A stretch of 34,077 nucleotides of DNA from an uncultured Roseburia sp. (GTDB lineage: Bacteria > Bacillota > Clostridia > Lachnospirales > Lachnospiraceae), in assembly GCA_900756925.1 (NCBI GenBank), contig CAAELX010000039.1, positions 1 through 34,077 on the forward strand, given 5' to 3'. The translations under genes were made by a program, and so were the position numbers. Of this stretch, positions 7,831-23,912 are shown piece by piece (the first letter of the stretch is position 1; every line of letters starts with the position of its first letter). The notes under the pieces are model-generated. The model saw nothing but the letters and a program-made list of their open reading frames with translations. It had not been told where the DNA came from and made no database searches.

Positions 7831-8718
7831 ATGAGAGAAAAACCGTTTTCAAAATATCAGATTTTATCCAATCTGATCATGATTATATGGACAGTCCTGA
7901 TCATTCTTCCGTTTATCCTGTTGTTCATGTCATCCATCACGGATGAGAAGGTGCTGGTAGCAAATGGATATTCCTTCTGGCCGACGAAGTTTTCCATGGA
8001 TGCATATGGATACATTTTAAAATCCGGAAAGAAGATTTTAAGCGCATACGGAGTCAGTATCTTAGTAACAGCGATCGGAACTTTATTAAACGTATTTTTA
8101 TCAGCTATGATGGCTTACCCGTTAGCAGTAAAGAACCTTCCTGGAAGAAAGTTCATGAACTTCTTCGTATTCTTTACGATGTTATTCAACGGAGGAATCG
8201 TTCCATCCTACTTAATGTGGACATCCTTTGGAATCAAAGATACGTTATGGGCGCAGTTATTACCGAACTTCCTCGTAAGTGCATGGAACGTTATGATGAT
8301 CCGTACTTACTTTACGACAAGTATTCCGGACAGCCTTTATGAGGCAGCCGAGATTGACGGTGCCACACAGTTTGAGATTTTCAAAAGTGTCGTTATCCCG
8401 CTTGGAAAACCAATCTTAGTTACCATGGGAACTTTCGCAGGACTGACTTACTGGAATGACTGGACCAACGGATTATACTATCTCGTTAAGAGGAAAGATT
8501 TCTACAACGTACAGAACTTATTAAACCAGATGGTCAGCAACATCCAGTACCTTGCAACAAGCTCGAACTCGAACGTGACTTCAGCAGCCGCAACGATCCC
8601 GTCCACGGCGATCCAGATGGCAATCGCATTCATCGCAATTTTACCGATTATGCTGATCTTCCCGTTCTTCCAGAAGTACTATTCCAAGGGACTTACCCTC
8701 GGTGGTGTTAAGGGCTAA
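7831..8718 (+). CDS. ABC sugar transporter permease, YtcP type
   Basis: The second permease subunit, 295 aa, with six predicted helices. It has the EAA motif LYEAAEIDGATQFEIFKSVV and then IPLGKPILVTMG. FNGGIVPSYLMWTSFGIKDT in the middle is characteristic of the YtcP/LplC branch that imports large or modified oligosaccharides together with an LplA-like binding protein. GGGAGG precedes ATG 7831. It pairs with the gene at 6904 and the lipoprotein at 8785. The coding sequence is rich in TTA and GCA codons, as are its neighbours. Confidence 0.94.
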   Translation: MREKPFSKYQILSNLIMIIWTVLIILPFILLFMSSITDEKVLVANGYSFWPTKFSMDAYGYILKSGKKILSAYGVSILVTAIGTLLNVFLSAMMAYPLAVKNLPGRKFMNFFVFFTMLFNGGIVPSYLMWTSFGIKDTLWAQLLPNFLVSAWNVMMIRTYFTTSIPDSLYEAAEIDGATQFEIFKSVVIPLGKPILVTMGTFAGLTYWNDWTNGLYYLVKRKDFYNVQNLLNQMVSNIQYLATSSNSNVTSAAATIPSTAIQMAIAFIAILPIMLIFPFFQKYYSKGLTLGGVKG

Positions 8719-12981: not shown

Positions 12982-15546
12982 GTGTCAGAAATTTTTGCAT
13001 CAAAAACCCCAGAAGTAGAAGAACGTGAAGTCCTTCACGCAAACCTCTCGAGAGAGCTCGCAGGCGAGTGTATGGTGCTTTTAGAGAACGACGGAGCATT
13101 ACCTTTCGCTGCGAAGAAAGTAGCAATATACGGAAACGGTGTCCGCGGAACCATCAAAGGCGGAACAGGATCCGGAGACGTCAATACCAGAAACAACGTC
13201 AATATCGAACAGGGCTTCGTCAACGCAGGTATTAAGGTTGCAAGCACCGCATGGCTGGACAGACAGGAGCAGAGAGTGAAAGATGCGAAAGCAGCTTATT
13301 TACAGTGGGCAAAAGAGGAAGCTGCAAGGAAAGGCGTACCGGAATTCTCCGTTATGTTCGATACCCCATATAAGGATCCTGCATGTGAGCTTATCACAGC
13401 AGAGGATGTGAAGGGATCTGAGACAGATACCGCAGTTTACGTGATCGCAAGAAATTCCGGCGAGGGTGCAGACCGCTTTGACGAAGCTGGAGATTATCAG
13501 TTATATCCGGAAGAATTAGAGAATATCAAAACAATTGCAGCCGGTTACAAAAACACAATTGTAGTATTAAACATCGGTGGGGTCATGAACCTTTCCGAGA
13601 TTAAGGCAGTGGAAGGTGTGAACGCCATCCTTCTCATGACCCAGCTTGGAAACCTCGGCGGAGATGCCCTACTTGATGTTCTGACCGGAAAAGTGAACCC
13701 ATCCGGAAAGACAACCGATACCTGGGCTAAGAACTACATGGATTATCCTTCTTCCGCAAAGTTCAGCCACAATGAGAGCGTAAACGACGAGATGTATGAG
13801 GATGGTATCTATATGGGCTACCGTTACTTTGACAGCTTTGACGTGGAAACAGAGTACTGCTTCGGATTCGGACGTTCCTACACAGAGTTTGAACTCAAAG
13901 CAGGCGAGATTTCTGTAAATGGAAATGAAGTTCAGGTTCCGGTTGAAGTGAAGAACATTGGAAGCAAATATGCAGGTAAAGAAGTCGTACAGGTATACTA
14001 CAGTGCGATCGGCGGTGAGATTGACAAGCCGTATCAGGAGCTTGCTGCCTATAAGAAGACAAAGCTTTTGGCACCGGGCGAGAGCGAACAGCTTGTGTTA
14101 AGCTACCCGGTATCCCAGATGGCTTCTTACTCTGAACAAGAGGCAGCATGGGTATTAGAGCAGGGCGAGTATGTGATCCGTGTCGGCAATAGCTCCGCAT
14201 CTACCGTAGCAGCAGGCGTTGCAGAGGTTAAAGAATCCGTAAAGACCGTGATTGCAAAGAACCTGTTTGCACTTGATGTGGAATTAGAAGAGATCAGGCC
14301 GGATGCAGGGAAGCTTGCTGCAAAGAAGCAGGCATCTGTCGGCGCTGATGTGAAGAGAGTTGTTGTGGATACCGCGGCCATCCCGACTCAGACCGTTGTT
14401 TATCAGGGAGAGCGTGAGGAGTATCACACTGATAAGACAGAGAAGATCACAATGCAGGATATCCTTTCCGGAAAAGCAACGGTTGAGGAGCTTGTAGCAC
14501 AGCTTACCGTGGATGAAATGGCACAGTTCTGTGTTGGAACACTTCGCGCAGATGGCGGAACCATTGTAGGAAATGCTTCCTATACCGTACCGGGTGCAGC
14601 CGGAGATACTTCTTCCGTATGCAGAGAGTCTCGTGGTATTAAAAATATGATCTTAGCAGACGGCCCTGCAGGTCTTCGTTTACAGCCACATTTCAAAACC
14701 ACAAAAGACGGAACACTCCTTCCGGGCGGTGAGGTGATCGGAGATTCTTACACACCGTTTGACCCGAACTTAAAGGAAGATGAAGTGGATGATTACTATC
14801 AGTACTGCACTGCAATCCCGATCGGCTGGGCACTGGCACAGTCTTGGAATACAGAGCTTGTAGAAAAGGCTGGAGATATGGTGGGAGCTGAGATGGAACA
14901 GTTCCATGTAGATCTGTGGCTGGCTCCGGCGATGAACATCCACAGAAATCCACTCTGCGGACGTAATTTCGAGTACTATTCCGAGGATCCGCTTGTATCC
15001 GGAAAAGTTGCCGCTGCCATGACGAATGGTGTCCAGAAGCATGCGGGCAAGGGAACCACGATCAAGCATTTTGCAGTCAACAACCAGGAAGACAACCGTT
15101 ACTTTGTCAATGCGCATGTGAGCGAGCGTGCACTCCGTGAGATTTACCTGAAAGGCTTCGAGATTACCGTGCGCGAGTCACAGCCGCTGTCCATTATGAC
15201 TTCCTACAACCTGTTGAACGGCATCCACACAGCCAATAGCCACGACCTCATCCAGAGTATGGCAAGAGACGAGTGGGGCTTCGAGGGAACAGTTATGACA
15301 GACTGGTTCACCTCCCAGGATATGCCGATGCTGACCGGTAAGTTCAAACCGATCTACCCAATTTCAGCTTCCACAGGATGCATCTGTGCCGGAAACGACA
15401 TGCAGATGCCAGGCTGCCAGAAGAACGTGGACGATATCGTAAAAGCGGTTGAGACAGGTGAGGAGATCGACGGCTACAAGATTACAAAAGCAGATTTACA
15501 GTACAATGCTGCAAATGTGATCCGCGTGGTTGCAAAGACGATGTAA
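12982..15546 (+). CDS. GH3 beta-glycosidase with swapped domain order
   Basis: Hydrolyses terminal beta-linked sugars with retention. The 854-aa chain starts with what is normally the C-terminal GH3 domain (ECMVLLENDGALPF at about 30-45; GEGADR with probable acid/base Glu161). A fibronectin-III-like region follows at about 310-420, and only then the TIM-barrel domain: GPAGLRL, APAMNIHRNPLCGRNFEYYS, KHFAVNNQEDNR and nucleophile Asp774 in VMTDWF. Inverted order of this kind is known for Ruminococcus and Butyrivibrio beta-glucosidases. No signal peptide, so it acts on imported glycosides. The start is GTG 12982 with AGGAGG at 12968-12973. It is the last gene of the locus, followed by a hairpin. 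Confidence 0.93.
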   Translation: MSEIFASKTPEVEEREVLHANLSRELAGECMVLLENDGALPFAAKKVAIYGNGVRGTIKGGTGSGDVNTRNNVNIEQGFVNAGIKVASTAWLDRQEQRVKDAKAAYLQWAKEEAARKGVPEFSVMFDTPYKDPACELITAEDVKGSETDTAVYVIARNSGEGADRFDEAGDYQLYPEELENIKTIAAGYKNTIVVLNIGGVMNLSEIKAVEGVNAILLMTQLGNLGGDALLDVLTGKVNPSGKTTDTWAKNYMDYPSSAKFSHNESVNDEMYEDGIYMGYRYFDSFDVETEYCFGFGRSYTEFELKAGEISVNGNEVQVPVEVKNIGSKYAGKEVVQVYYSAIGGEIDKPYQELAAYKKTKLLAPGESEQLVLSYPVSQMASYSEQEAAWVLEQGEYVIRVGNSSASTVAAGVAEVKESVKTVIAKNLFALDVELEEIRPDAGKLAAKKQASVGADVKRVVVDTAAIPTQTVVYQGEREEYHTDKTEKITMQDILSGKATVEELVAQLTVDEMAQFCVGTLRADGGTIVGNASYTVPGAAGDTSSVCRESRGIKNMILADGPAGLRLQPHFKTTKDGTLLPGGEVIGDSYTPFDPNLKEDEVDDYYQYCTAIPIGWALAQSWNTELVEKAGDMVGAEMEQFHVDLWLAPAMNIHRNPLCGRNFEYYSEDPLVSGKVAAAMTNGVQKHAGKGTTIKHFAVNNQEDNRYFVNAHVSERALREIYLKGFEITVRESQPLSIMTSYNLLNGIHTANSHDLIQSMARDEWGFEGTVMTDWFTSQDMPMLTGKFKPIYPISASTGCICAGNDMQMPGCQKNVDDIVKAVETGEEIDGYKITKADLQYNAANVIRVVAKTM

Positions 15547-16877: not shown

Positions 16878-18083
16878 ATGGTTTCCAGAAAAGAGATATT
16901 AAAGCGCCTGTGGGCGCAGATTAATGTAAACGGACATATTATCGGAACCGTAGCAGGCTCCGGGATGACAGCTAAATATGAAGTGATGGGCGGGGCGGAT
17001 TTGCTGCTGGCGCTCAGTGCAGGACGGTTTCGTATCATGGGAAGAAGCTCCTTCACCAGCTATCTGTGCTATGGAGAGAGCAATGAGATTGTTATGAATA
17101 TGGGATGTAATGAGCTGCTTCCAATCATTCAGGATACGCCGGTATTATTTGGACTTTTTGCCAATGATCCGATGATCCACTTATATGATTACATACAGGA
17201 GATCCGTGCCAGTGGATTCTCCGGAGTTGTGAATTATCCAACGATGGGATTGATTGACGGACAGTTTGGTGAGGCACTGCAGGAAGAGGGAAATACTTAC
17301 GAGCGTGAGGTAGAAGCCATCCGGCTGGCACATTATTTTGACCTGTTTACGGTGGCGTTTGTTGTGAATGGTGAGCAGGCGAGACAGATGACAGAAGCGG
17401 GAGCGGATATCATCTGTGCGCATCTGGGGTTGACGAAAGGCGGATTTTTAGGGGCAAAAAAATATATTTCCATCAATGATGCAAGAAAAATATCCGATGA
17501 AATCTTTGATGCCTGTGACAGTGTGCGGGATGATGTGATTAAGATGATCTACGCAGGACCGGCGAATACACCGCTCGATATGCAATATATGTATCAGAAT
17601 ACAAAGTGTCAGGGATATATAGGTGGTTCGACCTTTGACAGGATTCCGACCGAGCGGGCAATTTTGAATACAACAAGGGCTTTTAAAAGTTATGGGGATT
17701 TTGATGCCAACAATCCGATGATGCGGATGTTGGACGGAAACTGGAATTCCGGCGAATACGTGGAGTTTGTGAAGAAATATGTGGAAGAGCATTACATGAA
17801 TGAGATCCAGCTGAGGGATCTTGCAGCAGTTGCGCATGTTTCAGGCTCCTATTTGAGTGTGAAGTTCAAAAAAGAGGTAGGGTGCAGTTTTACGGAGTAT
17901 CTGGTACGGTTCCGCATCAATAAAGCGAAGGAACTGTTTGAACACAGATTTACATCCTGCAAAGAGGTTGCATCTATGGTCGGGTATGCAGACTATACTC
18001 AGTTTTCAAAGATTTTTAAAAAGTATACGGGAAAATCCCCAACAGAATATGTGAGGCAATATAAAGGGCAGATTGACAAGTGA
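16878..18083 (+). CDS. AraC-type regulator with a PEP-hydrolase-like TIM-barrel sensor domain
   Basis: A two-part protein of 401 aa. Residues 1-275 align throughout with the enzyme-like TIM barrel encoded at 19638. Shared blocks are GGAD, SAGRFRI/SGRFRM, YG(E/D)xNx[22 protein letters not shown] and MTEAGADIICAHLGLT. Residues about 295-395 carry two AraC helix-turn-helix units (IQLRDLAAVAHVSGSYLSV; EVASMVGYADYTQFSKIFKK). The enzyme's ICHGGP becomes IYAGPA here (His226 to Tyr225), suggesting ligand binding without catalysis. The start ATG 16878 has only a distant AGAGAGG. The gene ends in its own terminator and stands directly before the four-gene operon that it probably activates. That link is inferred from paralogy, position and the repeats at 18199-18274. 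Confidence 0.88.
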   Translation: MVSRKEILKRLWAQINVNGHIIGTVAGSGMTAKYEVMGGADLLLALSAGRFRIMGRSSFTSYLCYGESNEIVMNMGCNELLPIIQDTPVLFGLFANDPMIHLYDYIQEIRASGFSGVVNYPTMGLIDGQFGEALQEEGNTYEREVEAIRLAHYFDLFTVAFVVNGEQARQMTEAGADIICAHLGLTKGGFLGAKKYISINDARKISDEIFDACDSVRDDVIKMIYAGPANTPLDMQYMYQNTKCQGYIGGSTFDRIPTERAILNTTRAFKSYGDFDANNPMMRMLDGNWNSGEYVEFVKKYVEEHYMNEIQLRDLAAVAHVSGSYLSVKFKKEVGCSFTEYLVRFRINKAKELFEHRFTSCKEVASMVGYADYTQFSKIFKKYTGKSPTEYVRQYKGQIDK

Positions 18084-18093
18084 ATCAGAGTGG

Positions 18094-18123
18094 TAAGCAG
18101 AGGTGAAAACCTCTGCTTATTTT
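18094..18123 (+). terminator. Intrinsic terminator of the regulator gene
   Basis: TAAGCAGAGGT (18094-18104) pairs perfectly with ACCTCTGCTTA (18109-18119) over a GAAA tetraloop, followed by TTTT. It makes the regulator a separate transcription unit. Confidence 0.92.
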
Positions 18124-18198
18124 CATATGGGGGTAAAAATACTACATATATAAAAAAGAAAAGAAATGCAGGAAACCTTGTTATAAAAATAACAATAT

Positions 18199-18274
18199 AA
18201 TATAACAACATGTTTACTTAATATAATAGCCTCTTAAAAAGAATATAACAACAAGAAACACAAATATAACAACA
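18199..18274 (+). promoter_or_regulatory. Three identical 12-bp direct repeats, probable activator sites
   Basis: AATATAACAACA occurs exactly at 18199-18210, 18242-18253 and 18263-18274. Start-to-start distances are 43 and 21 bp, close to four and two helical turns, so all three face the same side of the DNA. The proximal pair with 21-bp spacing ends right at the -35 position of a promoter with TATAAT at 18297-18302. This is the arrangement used by AraC-type activators. A looser copy starts near 18186. The region is strongly AT-rich, so part of the similarity could be compositional. Confidence 0.65.
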
Positions 18275-18302
18275 TTTAAAGAAAGAAAAGAAGGTGTATA
18301 AT
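18274..18302 (+). promoter_or_regulatory. Probable activator-dependent promoter of the Tm-1-like operon
   Basis: A perfect -10 TATAAT (18297-18302) lies 17 bp after a poor -35 (ATTTAA, 18274-18279) that abuts the last direct repeat. Another possible promoter, TTGTTA (18178-18183) with a 17-bp spacer and TATAAC (18201-18206), lies upstream and overlaps the first repeat. The regulator could repress one and activate the other. Confidence 0.5.
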
Positions 18303-18356
18303 TAGAAGCATCAGGAGGACATACAAAGGAGAAGGAAAGTAGGGAGGCGATGCAAT

Positions 18357-19577
18357 GTGAATACTGTAGCACTTGCAGGAACGTTTGACACAAAGGGAAA
18401 AGAATTTCTCTATGTGAAAAAGCTGTTAGAAGCATTGGGGATGCGGACGCTGACGATTCATACGGGGGTATTTGAATCAGAGTTCGAACCTGACGTGACA
18501 AATGAAAGTGTTGCAAAGGCAGCAGGATACGATTTAAGAGCGATTGTCGAGAAAAGGGACCGGTCACTTGCAACAAAAGTGCTGGCAGACGGGATGGAAA
18601 AACTGATTCCGGAATTATACAGGGAAGGCAAATTTGATGGAATCCTGTCATTTGGAGGATCCGGAGGAACCGCACTGGTGACGGCAGCAATGAGAGCGTT
18701 ACCGCTTGGGGTGCCAAAGATTATGGTATCGACGATGGCTTCTGGAAATGTCTCCGCTTATGTAGGAACCAGTGACCTTATTATGATGCCGTCTATCGTG
18801 GATATTGCAGGAATCAATAAGATATCAGAGATGGTATTTACCAATGCAGCAATGGCAATGTATGGCATGCTTCATGGGAAGGAGATGCTGCCGGCAGAAG
18901 AAGAAGCGGAAAAACCGCTTGTTGCAGCGACTATGTTTGGTGTGACAACACCGTGTGTGACACGGGCAAAAGATAAGCTGGAAAAGAACGGTTATGAGGT
19001 TGTAGTGTTTCATGCAACTGGAACCGGTGGTAAGACTATGGAGAAGCTGATCAGAAATGGTTTTTTCAAAGGTGTTTTAGATCTTACTACAACAGAGTGG
19101 TGCGATGAGATCGTCGGAGGAATCCTGGCAGCGGGAGAACACCGGTCAGAGGCGGCAGCCGATTGTGGAATCCCACAGGTAGTGTCAACCGGTGCGATGG
19201 ATATGGTAAATTTCGGACCGCCGGATACGATTCCGGAGAAGTTTCGGGGAAGAAACTTTTACAGACACAATCCGGATGTGACACTTATGAGAACGAATGC
19301 CGAGGAGAACAAAGAGCTTGGAAACAGACTGGCAGAAAAGCTGAACCGGGCATCCGGAAAAACTGTGCTCTGTATCCCGTTAAAAGGTGTGTCAGAAATT
19401 GATGCGGAAGGAAAAGCTTTTTACGGACCATGCGAAGATCAAATTTTATTTAAAACACTCGAAGAGAAGGTGGACAGCAGTGTCGTTGAAATAAAGAAGC
19501 TGAATTATAACATCAACGACCCGCAGTTTGCAGATTATGCAGTAGACCGTCTGATGGAAATGATGCAGACAAGTTAA
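18357..19577 (+). CDS. Tm-1-like ATP-binding domain protein (UPF0261)
   Basis: A 406-aa protein, the normal length of the UPF0261 family. The N-terminal VALAGTFDTKGKEF is the family hallmark. LSFGGSGGTALVTAAMRALPLG (positions about 101-122, glycine-rich) and MVSTMASGNVSAYVG follow, with FHATGTGGKTMEKL near 220 and QVVSTGAMDMVNFGPP near 275. In plants the tobamovirus-resistance protein Tm-1 is this domain fused to a PEP-hydrolase-like TIM barrel; here the TIM barrel is the next gene, in the same order. The bacterial reaction is not known. Start GTG 18357 follows GGGAGG at 18342-18347; the nearby ATG is out of frame and hits a stop at once. First gene of the operon. Confidence 0.93.
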   Translation: MNTVALAGTFDTKGKEFLYVKKLLEALGMRTLTIHTGVFESEFEPDVTNESVAKAAGYDLRAIVEKRDRSLATKVLADGMEKLIPELYREGKFDGILSFGGSGGTALVTAAMRALPLGVPKIMVSTMASGNVSAYVGTSDLIMMPSIVDIAGINKISEMVFTNAAMAMYGMLHGKEMLPAEEEAEKPLVAATMFGVTTPCVTRAKDKLEKNGYEVVVFHATGTGGKTMEKLIRNGFFKGVLDLTTTEWCDEIVGGILAAGEHRSEAAADCGIPQVVSTGAMDMVNFGPPDTIPEKFRGRNFYRHNPDVTLMRTNAEENKELGNRLAEKLNRASGKTVLCIPLKGVSEIDAEGKAFYGPCEDQILFKTLEEKVDSSVVEIKKLNYNINDPQFADYAVDRLMEMMQTS

Positions 19578-19583
19578 TACTGA

Positions 19584-19606
19584 CAATAAGAGAAAAACTT
19601 ATTGTA
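19584..19606 (+). other. Small hairpin between the Tm-1-like and TIM-barrel genes
   Basis: ACAATAAG (19584-19591) pairs with CTTATTGT (19599-19606). No T-run follows, so it is more likely an RNA-processing or stability element in the operon than a terminator. Confidence 0.45.
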
Positions 19607-19637
19607 CAAATTAAATAATTCTTAGGAGGAAAATGAG

Positions 19638-20468
19638 ATGAACAGAATGACAAGAAGTGAGATTTTGGAGAAATTCCGTAGCGAGATCAATGGTGGAAAG
19701 ATTTTAGTTGGTGTTGGAGCAGGAACCGGTATCACCGCAAAGTGCAGTGAAAAAGGCGGTGCAGACATGCTGATTATTTACAATTCCGGAAGATTCAGAA
19801 TGGCAGGAAGAGGCTCTTTGTCAGGACTTCTCGCATATGGCGATGCAAATAAAATCGTACAGGAGATGGGACAGGAAGTACTTCCGGTTGTAAAGAATAC
19901 ACCGGTATTAGCAGGTGTATGTGGTACAGATCCATTCCGTATCATGGATATCTTCTTAAAACAGTTAAAGGATCAGGGATTCAATGGCGTTCAGAACTTC
20001 CCAACAGTCGGACTGATTGACGGAACTTTCAGAGCCAACCTGGAAGAGACAGGAATGGGATATGGATTAGAGGTTGAGATGATCCGCCAGGCACATGAAT
20101 TAGACATGCTTACCTGTCCATATGTATTTGACCCAGAGCAGGCAAAGGCAATGGCAGAAGCTGGTGCTGATATTTTAGTAGCTCATATGGGATTAACGAC
20201 AAAGGGAAGCATTGGTGCAGAGACAGCATTAACATTAGATGATTGCTGTGACAAGATCCGTGCGATTATCGAAGCTGGAAGATCTGTAAGACCAGACATC
20301 TTAGTCATCTGCCATGGTGGTCCAATTGCGGAACCGGAGGATGCAGCTTATGTGATCCACAATGTACCTGAAATCGACGGATTCTTTGGAGCATCTTCCA
20401 TTGAGCGTCTTGCATCTGAAAAAGGAATGACAGCCCAGACAGAAGCATTTAAAGGCATTCAGAAATAA
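19638..20468 (+). CDS. PEP-hydrolase-family TIM-barrel protein
   Basis: A single-domain TIM barrel of 276 aa (Pfam phosphoenolpyruvate hydrolase-like family). Key blocks are [20 protein letters not shown] near residues 25-45, [22 protein letters not shown] near 120, [15 protein letters not shown] near 175, [13 protein letters not shown] with His226, and [10 protein letters not shown] close to the end. This domain is the C-terminal half of plant Tm-1 and is usually encoded beside UPF0261 in bacteria. The name reflects fold relatedness to PEP-converting enzymes and the true reaction is unproven. AGGAGG stands 8 nt before ATG 19638. Its paralogue forms the sensor half of the regulator at 16878, which has lost the His. 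Confidence 0.92.
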
Positions 20469-20476
20469 AAAAAAGA

Positions 20477-20519
20477 GGTACGCCTGCATTCCCGGAAAGT
20501 GGAATGCAGGGACAGTACC
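20477..20519. other. Strong hairpin between the TIM-barrel and permease genes
   Basis: CCTGCATTCC (20483-20492) pairs with GGAATGCAGG (20501-20510), and outer GGTAC/GTACC arms (20477-20481 with 20515-20519) extend it. The A-rich tract lies on the 5' side, so it is not a plus-strand terminator. It may set differential stability of the two halves of the operon mRNA. Confidence 0.5.
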
Positions 20520-20549
20520 GATCATGGATAGACAACGAGGAGGAAGTTT

Positions 20550-21956
20550 ATGGAGGCACAGAAAGCAGTAGAAAAAAAGAATGACAAAATCCAGTTGATT
20601 ATAAAATGGGGGATTGCAATCGGAGTCCCTGCTTTGTTGTATTTCTTGATTCCGGATACGGATGGAATCTCCCTGGAAATGCGTAAGTTCTTTGTTTGCA
20701 CAGCATGGGCGATTTTGACATGGGCAATGAATCTGCTCCCGGTATATATATCAGGATTATTGTTGACAGTGGGAGCTATTTTGTGGGGAGTTGCCCCTGC
20801 AAATGTTGTTTTGGGACCATGGACAGGATCCATTGTATGGTTGTCGTTAGGCGGTCTTACACTGTCTGTAATTTTTGAAAAAAGTGGTCTGATGGAGCGT
20901 ATCGCATATTTTTTCATTGTAAAATCAGGAGGATCCTATAAAGGAATCGTAACAGGTCTGGTACTTTCAGGAGCAATTGTAGGACTTCTTGTTCCGAATA
21001 TGACAGGTCGTGTGGCATTATACTGTGCACTTTGCTATGGAATTTATAATGCACTGAAAATACCGAAAAACAGCAGCGCGGGAGCAGGCATTATGTTTGC
21101 AGGATTTGTTGCGGCAATTGCTCCGTCATGGATGTATTTATCTGCAAGTGAAAATTTACAGCTTGTAAATTCTTATTTAAAAGATACAGGAGAGTCTGTT
21201 ACATGGATGAAATATTTTGTCAGTAACTTCCCTGTAATGTTAATCTGGCTGATCGTTCTTCTTGTCATGGTACGTGTTCTTTTTAAGCAGGATGCGCCAA
21301 TTGATGGAAAAGAATATTTTGAGAAGAAACAGAAAGAACTTGGACCGATGACTGCAAAAGAGATTAAGTTCTTAATCATTCTCCTTGCATTAGTTATTGC
21401 CATTGTTTTTGTAAACGTAGATGCTGGCTGGTTATTTACATTAGCTGTGATAGTCTGCTTTATTCCTGGAATTGATGTTGCGGATGTAAAAGATTTACAG
21501 AAAGTAAACTTTCCGATGGTGTTCTTTGTTGCAGCAACGATGTCAATCGGAAGTATGTCGAATGCAGTTGGTGTGGCAGGTCTTGTAAGTGAATTATTAA
21601 TGCCGGTGCTTCAGAATGTAGGAAACTTTGGTCTGGTTGTTTTCTCATGGCTGACCGGTGTGTTAGTCGATATGTTAATGACGCCTCTGGCAGGAATGGC
21701 AGCATTCTCACCGTTATTCATTGAAATCGCACAGAAACTTGGATTAAGCGCCACAGGTGTCACATTCAGCTTTGTATGGGGCGTTGAACAGCTATTCTTC
21801 CCATATGAGTGGGCATTATTCCTGATTCTGTTCAGTTATGACGTATTTGATACGAAAAAGGCAATCAAATTCTGTACAGTGCGTACAATTTTAAGCCTTA
21901 TCTTTTTAGTAGTACTGATTTATCCATATTGGATGTTAACAGGATTCCTGAAGTAA
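20550..21956 (+). CDS. SLC13/DASS-family anion permease
   Basis: A membrane transporter of 468 aa with about eleven to twelve hydrophobic helices. It belongs to the divalent anion/sodium symporter family: LPVYISGLLLTVGAILWGVAP, then GPWTGSIVWLSLGGLTLSVI at about 90-110, VPNMTGRVALYCALCYGIYNAL near 150, and the second repeat with VFFVAATMSIGSMSNAVGVAG. The family's substrate-binding Ser-Asn-Thr loops are modified (Asn-Met-Thr in the first repeat), so dicarboxylate or sulfate should not be assumed. GAGGAGG precedes ATG 20550. It is encoded between the TIM barrel and the sulfotransferase, and most likely imports the anionic substrate of the pathway. Confidence 0.88.
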   Translation: MEAQKAVEKKNDKIQLIIKWGIAIGVPALLYFLIPDTDGISLEMRKFFVCTAWAILTWAMNLLPVYISGLLLTVGAILWGVAPANVVLGPWTGSIVWLSLGGLTLSVIFEKSGLMERIAYFFIVKSGGSYKGIVTGLVLSGAIVGLLVPNMTGRVALYCALCYGIYNALKIPKNSSAGAGIMFAGFVAAIAPSWMYLSASENLQLVNSYLKDTGESVTWMKYFVSNFPVMLIWLIVLLVMVRVLFKQDAPIDGKEYFEKKQKELGPMTAKEIKFLIILLALVIAIVFVNVDAGWLFTLAVIVCFIPGIDVADVKDLQKVNFPMVFFVAATMSIGSMSNAVGVAGLVSELLMPVLQNVGNFGLVVFSWLTGVLVDMLMTPLAGMAAFSPLFIEIAQKLGLSATGVTFSFVWGVEQLFFPYEWALFLILFSYDVFDTKKAIKFCTVRTILSLIFLVVLIYPYWMLTGFLK

Positions 21957-21986
21957 AAAGTATTCATACAGGTAAAGGAGAAGAGT

Positions 21987-23861
21987 ATGGTTCGTCATGA
22001 AATAAAAAAGAGTCTGATTACCCGTCAGGCAGAAAATGAAAAATTATTTTTAAATCAGTTCCGGGAGGGAAATTACACAGCGAAGAATCCGCTGGTAGTG
22101 TTAAATCCATATGAGATTTCACCATTGACAGCAATGATTCTTTTTAAGACATCTGTAAAACAGGAAGTGACAGTTGTTGTGAAAGGCAAGACACCGGAAG
22201 GGGATGTAAGGCATACGTTCCCGCGGGCAACAGAGCACATCCTGCCAATTTATGGATTGTATGCAGATTATGAAAATACGGTAGAACTTATCTTATCAGG
22301 CGGAGAACGTGAAACTGTCAAAATTCAGACGGCACCGCTTCGTGACAGTGTGCCGGCACCGACGTATTGCCAGAAGAATGCGGAGCATATGGGCGATAAC
22401 TGGGTATTCCTTACTGAGACCTCCAAGGCGGATGCACTTGCCTGTGATTCACAGGGAGAAGTGCGGTGGTATCTGACCATCAATGTCTGCTTTGATATGA
22501 AACGTCTCGCCAATGGACATCTTTTAGTTGGAACAGACCGCCTCATTAAGCTGCCATATTATGTAAGCGGTGTTTATGAAATGGGTGTTCATGGAAAAAT
22601 TTATCGGGAATACAGACTCCCAGGTGGTTACCATCATGATACGTTTGAATTGAAAAATGGTAATATTTTAATGCTCACCCAGATCCCAGGAAGAGATACG
22701 GTGGAAGATACATTGGTTCTGGTAGACCGGGAAACAGGAGATATTTTAAAGACATGGGATTATAAGAAAATTTTACCGTATGACTGTGCCAGCACTTATT
22801 CCGGATCCGCTTCCGCACATGACTGGTTCCACAATAACGCCGTATGGTATGATGAAAAAACAGATTCCATTACTTTATCAGGACGTCATCAGGATGCCGT
22901 TATCAATATTGATTTCGAGACTGGAGAGCTGAACTGGATTATCGGAGATCCGGAAGGGTGGCCACAGGAATATGTAGACAAATATTTCTTCAAACCGGAA
23001 GGGGAACCATTTGAATGGTCTTATGAGCAGCATGGAGTAGTCGTTTGCCCGGATGGAAGCGTTATGATGTTTGACAACGGTCACTATCGTTCCAAAGTCA
23101 AAGAAAATTACATGAAAGCAAAGGACAGCTACTCAAGAGGTGTCAGATACCAGATTGATACAGAGAAGAGAACGATCCGCCAGATGTGGCAGTACGGGAA
23201 GGAGAGGGGAGCTGATTTCTTTTCACCATATATTTGTAATGTGGAATATTATGATGAGGGACGTTATATGGTTCACTCCGGAGGTATTGCCTACAAGAAT
23301 AACGAGCCGTTAGAAGGTCTTGGAAGTATGGATGGAACAGGTCCGGATTGCAGGCTGAATACAATTACCTGTGAGATTGTGGATGATAAAGTAGTTTATG
23401 AGCTTCATGTACCTTCCAATGTATTCCGGGCAGAGAAGCTTCCACCTTATTATGCAGGTGAAGTGATGGAAGAGGGACCGGGAAAAATGGTTGGCTCTAT
23501 GTGCCCGACAGAAGAATTTGAGACAGAAATTCCGGCTGAAAATGCTAATGCAGAACTTCCGGATCATTATGAGGCACTTATAGAAGAAGAGGAAGACCGT
23601 ATCCGCTTCAACGCAACCTTTGAAAAAGGTGAAGTGGCAATGCTCATTCTGGAAGAAGAATCTGGTATACGTCACAGATATTACATTAACACATCTGCAG
23701 CAAAGAGCTACGAGGCAATGTGTGTTGGAACATTTATCAAGAATGATCCGAGAAATGTGGATGTCTATGTCAATAAAGCAGGATTAAGTGGAAAACTGAA
23801 GGTAAAAGTAATTCTTGAGGATAAGATTTACGATACCGGTGTTGTGGTCGCAATGGATTAA
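21987..23861 (+). CDS. assT: Aryl-sulfate sulfotransferase (ASST), cytoplasmic type
   Basis: Moves a sulfo group from one phenolic sulfate ester to another phenol without PAPS. The 624-aa chain has an N-terminal beta domain (about 30-120) and a six-bladed propeller. By comparison with E. coli AssT, catalytic residues His252, His356, Arg374 and the transiently sulfated His436 correspond to His217 (YHHDTFELKNGN), His282 (DWFHNNAVWY), Arg300 (LSGRHQDAV) and His349 (EQHGVVV). The 18-residue step from the second His to the Arg is identical in both. Unlike E. coli AssT there is no signal peptide, and no DsbL/DsbI pair lies nearby. AAAGGAGAAG precedes ATG 21987. Last gene of the operon, followed by a terminator. 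Confidence 0.93.
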   Translation: MVRHEIKKSLITRQAENEKLFLNQFREGNYTAKNPLVVLNPYEISPLTAMILFKTSVKQEVTVVVKGKTPEGDVRHTFPRATEHILPIYGLYADYENTVELILSGGERETVKIQTAPLRDSVPAPTYCQKNAEHMGDNWVFLTETSKADALACDSQGEVRWYLTINVCFDMKRLANGHLLVGTDRLIKLPYYVSGVYEMGVHGKIYREYRLPGGYHHDTFELKNGNILMLTQIPGRDTVEDTLVLVDRETGDILKTWDYKKILPYDCASTYSGSASAHDWFHNNAVWYDEKTDSITLSGRHQDAVINIDFETGELNWIIGDPEGWPQEYVDKYFFKPEGEPFEWSYEQHGVVVCPDGSVMMFDNGHYRSKVKENYMKAKDSYSRGVRYQIDTEKRTIRQMWQYGKERGADFFSPYICNVEYYDEGRYMVHSGGIAYKNNEPLEGLGSMDGTGPDCRLNTITCEIVDDKVVYELHVPSNVFRAEKLPPYYAGEVMEEGPGKMVGSMCPTEEFETEIPAENANAELPDHYEALIEEEEDRIRFNATFEKGEVAMLILEEESGIRHRYYINTSAAKSYEAMCVGTFIKNDPRNVDVYVNKAGLSGKLKVKVILEDKIYDTGVVVAMD

Positions 23862-23874
23862 GACATATATTTGT

Positions 23875-23912
23875 AAAGCGGGATAAGGAATGACAATTCC
23901 TTTCCCGCTTTT
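23875..23912. terminator. Intrinsic terminator between the sulfotransferase and trmB
   Basis: AAAGCGGGA (23875-23883) pairs with TCCCGCTTT (23903-23911), with an inner AAGGAAT/ATTCCTT stem. It serves the plus-strand operon and, because A and T tracts flank both sides, may also serve the convergent trmB. Confidence 0.85.

Follow-up and report, generated by a model that had tools for sequence, protein, structure and literature searches.

The stretch of DNA analysed here, called the window below, comprises 34,077 nucleotides of contig CAAELX010000039.1 (assembly GCA_900756925.1) from an uncultured Roseburia sp. It harbors a cluster of five plus-strand open reading frames (ORFs) at positions 16878-23861. 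In order, these encode an AraC-type regulator with a TIM barrel (REG), a UPF0261 protein, a PF09370 TIM-barrel protein (PEPH), a DASS-type anion permease and an aryl-sulfate sulfotransferase (ASST). All five passed their Pfam cut-offs. Thus, the five adjacent genes and their identities, proposed earlier by a model from the DNA letters (the sequence-only reading), were recovered, as was the terminator placed at 23875 (Table 1). REG ends in a hairpin of its own, and the 273-bp gap that follows contains repeats and a promoter-like site; the gaps further downstream measure 60, 81 and 30 bp. Consequently, the locus probably consists of the REG gene, transcribed separately, and a four-gene operon UPF0261-PEPH-DASS-ASST. 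The single five-gene operon of the sequence-only reading therefore stands for the genes from UPF0261 to ASST, and REG is probably to be taken out of it. The region holds no more promoter-like sites than its shuffles do (19 versus a mean of 20.9). Elements resembling the promoter are also found 3' of site 3 in relatives, as judged by eye. The hairpin between PEPH and DASS could set the ratio between the two halves of the operon.

Table 1. Features of the gene cluster in the window (positions refer to the whole stretch).
Feature	Position	Strand	Evidence or remark
REG, PF09370 TIM barrel fused to AraC-type helix-turn-helix (HTH) domain	16878-18083	+	Pfam; PF09370 E 4.6e-98
Terminator-like hairpin 3' of REG	18088-18124	+	-20.9 kcal/mol, z -7.1; 0/200 shuffles as good
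Candidate operator site 1, ATATAACAACAT	18200-18211	+	repeat scan
Candidate operator site 2, ATATAACAACAA	18243-18254	+	43 bp past site 1; spacing recurs in 7 other arrays
Candidate operator site 3, ATATAACAACAT	18264-18275	+	21 bp past site 2; touches -35-like element
Promoter-like TTTAAA-16-TATAAT, candidate for four-gene operon	18275-18302	+	consensus match only
UPF0261, N and C domains (Tm-1 N-terminal half)	18357-19577	+	Pfam, fold
PEPH, PF09370 TIM barrel (Tm-1 C-terminal half)	19638-20468	+	Pfam; E 3.9e-128
Hairpin without T-run between PEPH and DASS	20477-20519	+	-23.4 kcal/mol, z -4.9
DASS-type anion permease, Na_sulph_symp	20550-21956	+	Pfam
ASST, PAPS-independent aryl-sulfate sulfotransferase without hydrophobic N-terminus	21987-23861	+	Pfam; E 2e-103
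Operon terminator hairpin	23875-23911	+	-22.4 kcal/mol, z -6.4

The conservation of the cluster was examined by scanning an alignment of 24 ASST sequences against one genome per species. Relatives were encoded at 118 places, the best 80 of which were kept and searched for UPF0261 and PEPH (tblastn, E 1e-8). Among these best 80 of 118 loci, eight possess an ASST of at least 70% identity, and seven of the eight carry REG, UPF0261 and PEPH. Their hosts are Diplocloster modestus, Diplocloster agilis, Hungatella effluvii, Hungatella hathewayi and three uncultured relatives. DASS belongs to the same cluster in six of the seven; in the seventh (locus L006) the contig begins at ASST, and DASS is located at the end of another contig (L213) of the same genome. 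The neighbourhood is thus not confined to one strain; such confinement had been named by the sequence-only reading as grounds for abandoning it. The gene order is DASS-ASST-REG-UPF0261-PEPH in L007 and, to the extent that the contig ends reveal it, also in L006 (and genome G006); L001-L005 have another order. Because of this swap, the blocks DASS-ASST and REG-UPF0261-PEPH appear to have moved and nevertheless stayed together. At L006:2110-3946 residues 1-301 of REG are fused to UPF0261 from residue 93 with loss of the HTH domain and the repeat array; in this metagenome assembly the fusion is a deletion or an assembly fault. The remaining 70 of the 80 loci, several of them on short contigs, gave no UPF0261 or PEPH match.

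The gap 5' of UPF0261 contains direct repeats of ATATAAMMACAW (at most one mismatch) at spacings of 43 and 21 bp. These candidate operator repeats are a new finding. When the gap was shuffled 20,000 times with dinucleotides preserved, the 0/43/64 array never occurred; the pattern had been chosen after such gaps were seen. Since the gene neighbourhood recurs in other genera and the array was absent from all shuffles, the arrangement is more than chance. Arrays with the 43-bp spacing were found 5' of UPF0261 in L001-L005 and L007. The last of these loci has DASS-ASST as a separate block, with another array 5' of DASS at 8344, 8387 and 8408; this second array came from scanning with the UPF0261-gap pattern. 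A 36-bp pattern with 22 specified bases, written afterwards, was then searched in eight genomes (about 39 Mb) allowing up to 3 mismatches, with the reversed pattern as control. It gave 8 matches, all at the cluster, versus 1 for the control. The matches lie 5' of UPF0261 in G001-G005 and G007, and 5' of DASS in G007 and in G006 (both with 0 mismatches); the G006 place had already been seen in a mis-spaced scan, and the UPF0261 matches are partly by construction, since the pattern was drawn from UPF0261 gaps. With a looser 43-bp pattern, allowing 2 mismatches at most, 15 matches were obtained, 7 at the cluster with 0-1 mismatch and 8 elsewhere, one of the latter with 1 mismatch and seven with 2. 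As the reversed control gave 11, the eight off-cluster matches are at noise level. Single sites (up to 1 mismatch) also occur elsewhere in several loci, with 0.25-0.6 expected per locus.

UPF0261 and DASS-ASST possess the same array when the blocks are split, and one regulator is thus probably common to both. The sequence-only reading would have failed if ASST and permease were transcribed independently and did not respond to the same inducer; the shared array bears on this indirectly and points to a shared regulator. No array was found in L008 and L014, which both lack REG, or in L015, from which REG has been lost. As the array adjoins REG and is missing where REG is missing, REG is the putative protein that binds the repeats. 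AraC-family regulators bind tandem direct repeats near the -35 element. The window repeats lie near a -35-like element, and their position is conserved in relatives. In ten other PF09370-bearing genomes a related 36-bp pattern gave 6 matches versus 3 for its reversed control; five of the six lie 5' of UPF0261 (G371, G666, G679, G333 and G011), one lies elsewhere in G333, and five genomes had none. This search, which looked for a regulon beyond the cluster, gave no hint to the substrate.

The barrel of REG was compared with that of the enzyme in an alignment of 8 REG barrel and 16 PEPH sequences. At 49 positions a residue is shared by no fewer than 15 of the PEPH proteins, and 27 of these positions are identical in 8/8 REG barrels. 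Five PEPH-conserved positions (E38, M55, L64, V85 and H226) are missing in 8/8 REG barrels. The chemically telling losses are E38, replaced by V, A, L or I, and H226, replaced by Y or C, both being polar residues invariant in PEPH. Because these two residues are gone, REG is likely a dead-enzyme sensor, its barrel serving to bind a compound of the pathway without catalysis. Pfam also identified an HTH_18/HTH_AraC domain in REG. The cluster apparently has its own sensor, as the sequence-only reading had proposed.

The ASST of the window matches PF05935 above the Pfam cut-off and contains the N-terminal Ig-like domain. His349 falls in the alignment column where 3elq has His and 4p04 has Asn (E. 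coli AssT). This residue and H217, H282 and R300 are invariant in all 24 aligned sequences, the window included. Their E. coli counterparts are His436 (for H349), His252, His356 and Arg374. The catalytically intact enzyme of the sequence-only reading is borne out by this alignment. A hydrophobic, signal-peptide-like N-terminal stretch was not found in the protein, which should therefore be cytoplasmic. According to PMC11576661, purified ASST from H. effluvii uses p-nitrophenyl sulfate as donor, is active on phenol and catechol, and is 58.5% identical to ASSTA. Four ASSTs of Desulfosporosinus, Desulfitobacterium and Dehalobacterium stood in for ASSTA in a comparison with all seven ASSTs of H. 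effluvii. Only the cluster copy reached 58.0-58.6%; the published enzyme is thus probably this copy, a 78% relative of the window ASST. By analogy, the window ASST is predicted to transfer sulfo groups between phenols. The moving of a sulfo group, which the sequence-only reading had left beside its removal, would hold in the form of transfer to another hydroxyl, and simple removal would not.

UPF0261 and PEPH were assigned by Pfam and by a structure search in which the top 1000 Foldseek chains were re-aligned and the absence of other folds carries no meaning. The UPF0261 protein contains both Pfam domains and a Tm-1-like fold; PEPH combines the PF09370 match with the fold of Mll9387. In PDB entry 9mpy a UPF0261 protein, Saro_1862 from Novosphingobium aromaticivorans, has acetovanillone bound. 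The window protein shares 37% identity with it over 343 residues. A 74% relative of the 9mpy protein is encoded in Novosphingobium humi, in the kinase place of a kinase-carboxylase-phosphatase-type operon. This plasmid stretch (L139:7926-13314; UPF0261 - biotin carboxylase - carboxyltransferase - HAD phosphatase, in a record with no features annotated there) likely represents an acetovanillone-type pathway with a single-component kinase. By analogy, the window UPF0261 is probably a kinase that uses ATP to phosphorylate a hydroxyl (phenol or enol). Since one UPF0261 protein binds acetovanillone and a close relative holds the kinase place in a phenol-type operon, an aromatic hydroxyl compound is indirectly supported as the substrate. 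The sequence-only reading had suggested the import of an anionic, possibly sulfated aromatic molecule; of this, the aromatic hydroxyl gains from these proteins. It had also held that the bacterial function of the Tm-1 halves is not established, and for UPF0261 the role is no longer blank. The view of UPF0261 as a family without known function is weakened by 9mpy. PEPH may act on the UPF0261 product. The label "phosphoenolpyruvate/phosphonopyruvate hydrolase" for PF09370 comes from titles and Pfam, and no such activity was found in the sources consulted. DASS scored 102.4 in Pfam (cut-off 27) and 91.4 for TIGR00785, under the cut-off of 198.6; the cluster copies have PN[MI]TGR and MTP[LM]A at the places where SNT motifs are expected.

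The linkage of the genes, and probably their shared control, is well supported by the comparison made here of gene content, conservation, joint loss and common array. The chemistry, for which ASST activity and acetovanillone binding are taken from published relatives, is a reasoned guess. We consider a regulon for an aromatic hydroxyl compound, with kinase and sulfotransfer steps, to have about an even chance of being correct; for it we infer the binding of REG to the repeats, the REG ligand, the UPF0261 kinase activity, the PEPH chemistry, the direction of transport and the identity of the substrate. The REG barrel, related to PEPH and without its two invariant polar residues, would bind a pathway metabolite, and its AraC domain would occupy the repeats beside the -35 element and activate the operon. 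DASS would move an organic anion, perhaps an aryl sulfate, and the cytoplasmic ASST would shift the sulfo group between phenols, freeing (or capping) a hydroxyl, so that DASS-ASST would supply or conjugate the phenol. UPF0261 would use ATP to phosphorylate the freed hydroxyl. PEPH, whose fold resembles that of phosphate-binding lyase/aldolase barrels, would act on the phosphorylated product. More tentatively, a full sulfate-to-phosphate exchange may be envisaged: DASS takes up aryl sulfates, ASST desulfates them onto a second acceptor, UPF0261 makes aryl or enol phosphates, PEPH cleaves or rearranges these, and REG, a dead PEPH copy, senses the phosphorylated intermediate. If true, this would provide a physiological role for gut-bacterial cytosolic ASSTs and a chemical reaction for both Tm-1 halves.

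Several findings weigh against this aromatic reading, some of them against the association itself. In a family sample that includes genomes already known from ASST loci, PF09370 was above the cut-off in 14/299 genomes. ASST lies beside it in four (G002-G005), nine lack ASST and DASS within the 18-20 kb stretches examined, and in G011 the trio REG-UPF0261-PEPH is found on a 3.2-kb contig with no PF05935 in the genome. In a class sample 17/391 genomes have PF09370, and all but G004 lack ASST and DASS in stretches of 14.6-19.9 kb. Hence the partnership with ASST and DASS was seen in one Lachnospiraceae group only, and most sampled PF09370 genomes lack it. As REG-UPF0261-PEPH is contiguous in 9 of these 16 Clostridia, the trio looks like an older module that DASS-ASST joined in one Lachnospiraceae group. 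Furthermore, the seven cluster hosts carry 3-7 ASST genes each; ASST is therefore not necessarily bound to a single pathway. In the Hungatella loci L002 and L004, REG and UPF0261 are separated by 2.3-2.5 kb that contain additional genes (in L002 an alpha/beta hydrolase, in L004 an opposite-strand MatE transporter), and a thioredoxin-reductase-like FAD oxidoreductase, lacking in the window, lies between DASS and ASST (L002:9038-9979, Pfam; L004:9041-9979). Together with the swapped block order, the frequent trio or pair without ASST would suit two blocks that are neighbours by chance or shared mobility and have no common pathway. We regard this as very improbable, given the conservation of the cluster, the same repeat array on both blocks when separated, and their joint decay in L015. 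This eighth close locus has tRNA genes and flanks in common with L003 (82-84% nucleotide identity). It lacks REG, UPF0261, PEPH and the first 130 DASS codons, its ASST lacks residues 460-539 in frame, and no PF09370 was found anywhere in its genome; the genome being metagenome-assembled, an assembly error may account for the block loss.

Other points weigh against the chemistry. The window UPF0261 does not fall into the clade of Saro_1862 (probably the phenol kinase MarK) and belongs to a distant, separate one (tree of 26 rows, deep forks weakly supported); and the N. humi stretch is without PEPH. UPF0261 neighbours elsewhere are often sugar- or acid-related, namely glycerate kinase with ABC genes, RuBisCO-like protein, RpiB or TIM, FGGY kinase with CoA activase, and MmgE/PrpD. 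DASS carriers usually take di- and tricarboxylates. A non-aromatic pathway would accommodate such neighbours and is a minor possibility that we take seriously. In this pathway an enolic or acid-sugar hydroxyl would be phosphorylated by UPF0261 and the product cleaved by PEPH; DASS would import a dicarboxylate, and the sulfate that ASST acts on would be an aliphatic or enol one. The activity of H. effluvii ASST with aliphatic alcohols fits it in kind, but at 10-15 mU/mg is far below that with phenols, as stated in PMC11576661; acetovanillone bound to a UPF0261 protein also speaks against it. Alternatively, ASST might sulfate a toxic phenol that the cell produces or encounters and DASS export the sulfate against another anion, with UPF0261-PEPH as a parallel disposal route. 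Transfer between phenols by ASST would allow this, and gut-bacterial phenol sulfation is cited as possible detoxification in the review PMC13426309. An intracellular sulfo donor would still need import, however, and nothing found favours export; we consider such detoxification unlikely.

The cluster differs from the known systems. Plant Tm-1 and Tm-1-like proteins are one UPF0261 + TBST fusion, whereas the window has two separate genes with a regulator, a permease and ASST in no antiviral context. With Saro_1862 and the Hpe/Acv acetovanillone pathway it has the UPF0261 family in common, but Saro_1862 represents the far clade, and its N. humi relative is partnered by genes for a carboxylase and a phosphatase, and not by PEPH, DASS or ASST. 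The cytosolic PAPS-independent ASSTs of Desulfitobacterium, Desulfosporosinus and H. effluvii are 55-60% identical to the window ASST (78% for the H. effluvii cluster copy), have the same catalytic residues and are likewise without a signal-peptide-like stretch; no UPF0261 or PEPH lies within the examined flanks of 71 of the 80 best ASST loci. Rhizobia, Thermomicrobium and Haloterrigena possess the same UPF0261-PF09370 pair, adjoining or one gene apart in 7 of the 9 annotated plasmid loci examined from 343 matching records, with an ABC, MFS or dicarboxylate symporter nearby, a cupin in 3/9 and no ASST annotated. The plasmid collection holds 16 ASST records, and UPF0261 is not annotated in the two loci examined. 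A second, diverged set was found in Diplocloster (L008 and L014; ASST 58-59%) with a 48% DASS, two ASSTs, and PEPH and UPF0261 at 34-35%. Compared with the window it adds a RuBisCO-like protein and an amidohydrolase (scanned in L008), and the stretch examined has neither REG nor array. This second cluster (L008:6906-17273 and L014) also has a gene of the metallo-beta-lactamase fold (Pfam in L008).

Among the papers listed by the literature searches, none joining UPF0261 or Tm-1-like proteins with ASST was found. Such null results depend on wording, since "aryl-sulfate sulfotransferase" together with "Hungatella" gave none, yet the H. effluvii enzyme paper exists. According to PMC13426309, it is mostly unknown which natural acceptors bacterial ASSTs use and which physiological roles they have; PMC5028733 calls the UPF0261 half of Tm-1-like proteins from plants uncharacterised. 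A conserved set that ties ASST to the Tm-1 halves, with a candidate operator and one sensor, makes both functions testable in one induction and enzyme experiment. The host is a relative of gut Lachnospiraceae. In it, a single regulator, made from a spare copy of an enzyme that the set itself encodes, probably controls these genes jointly. The cluster is also relevant to the ways in which sulfated phenols may be dealt with by gut bacteria.

Some further arrangements were observed. The scanned flanking genes of the window (two-component system, ABC permease, alpha/beta hydrolase, nucleoside hydrolase, GH3, LprI-like lipoprotein and housekeeping genes) gave no hint to the substrate. REG-UPF0261-PEPH with long REG ORFs of 542-622 amino acids occurs in L167, L168 and L174; in L167, the one locus of these three that was scanned, the trio adjoins genes for a BadFG/HgdC-type CoA-enzyme activase and an FGGY kinase. 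A RuBisCO-like protein with UPF0261 and PEPH and without ASST recurs in L129, L133, L135, L136 and L182. In one Lachnospiraceae genome (L134), a single run of genes contains two UPF0261 genes along with six PF09370 barrels. The GH3 enzyme at 12982-15546 of the window has its Pfam C-terminal domain placed ahead of the N-terminal domain.

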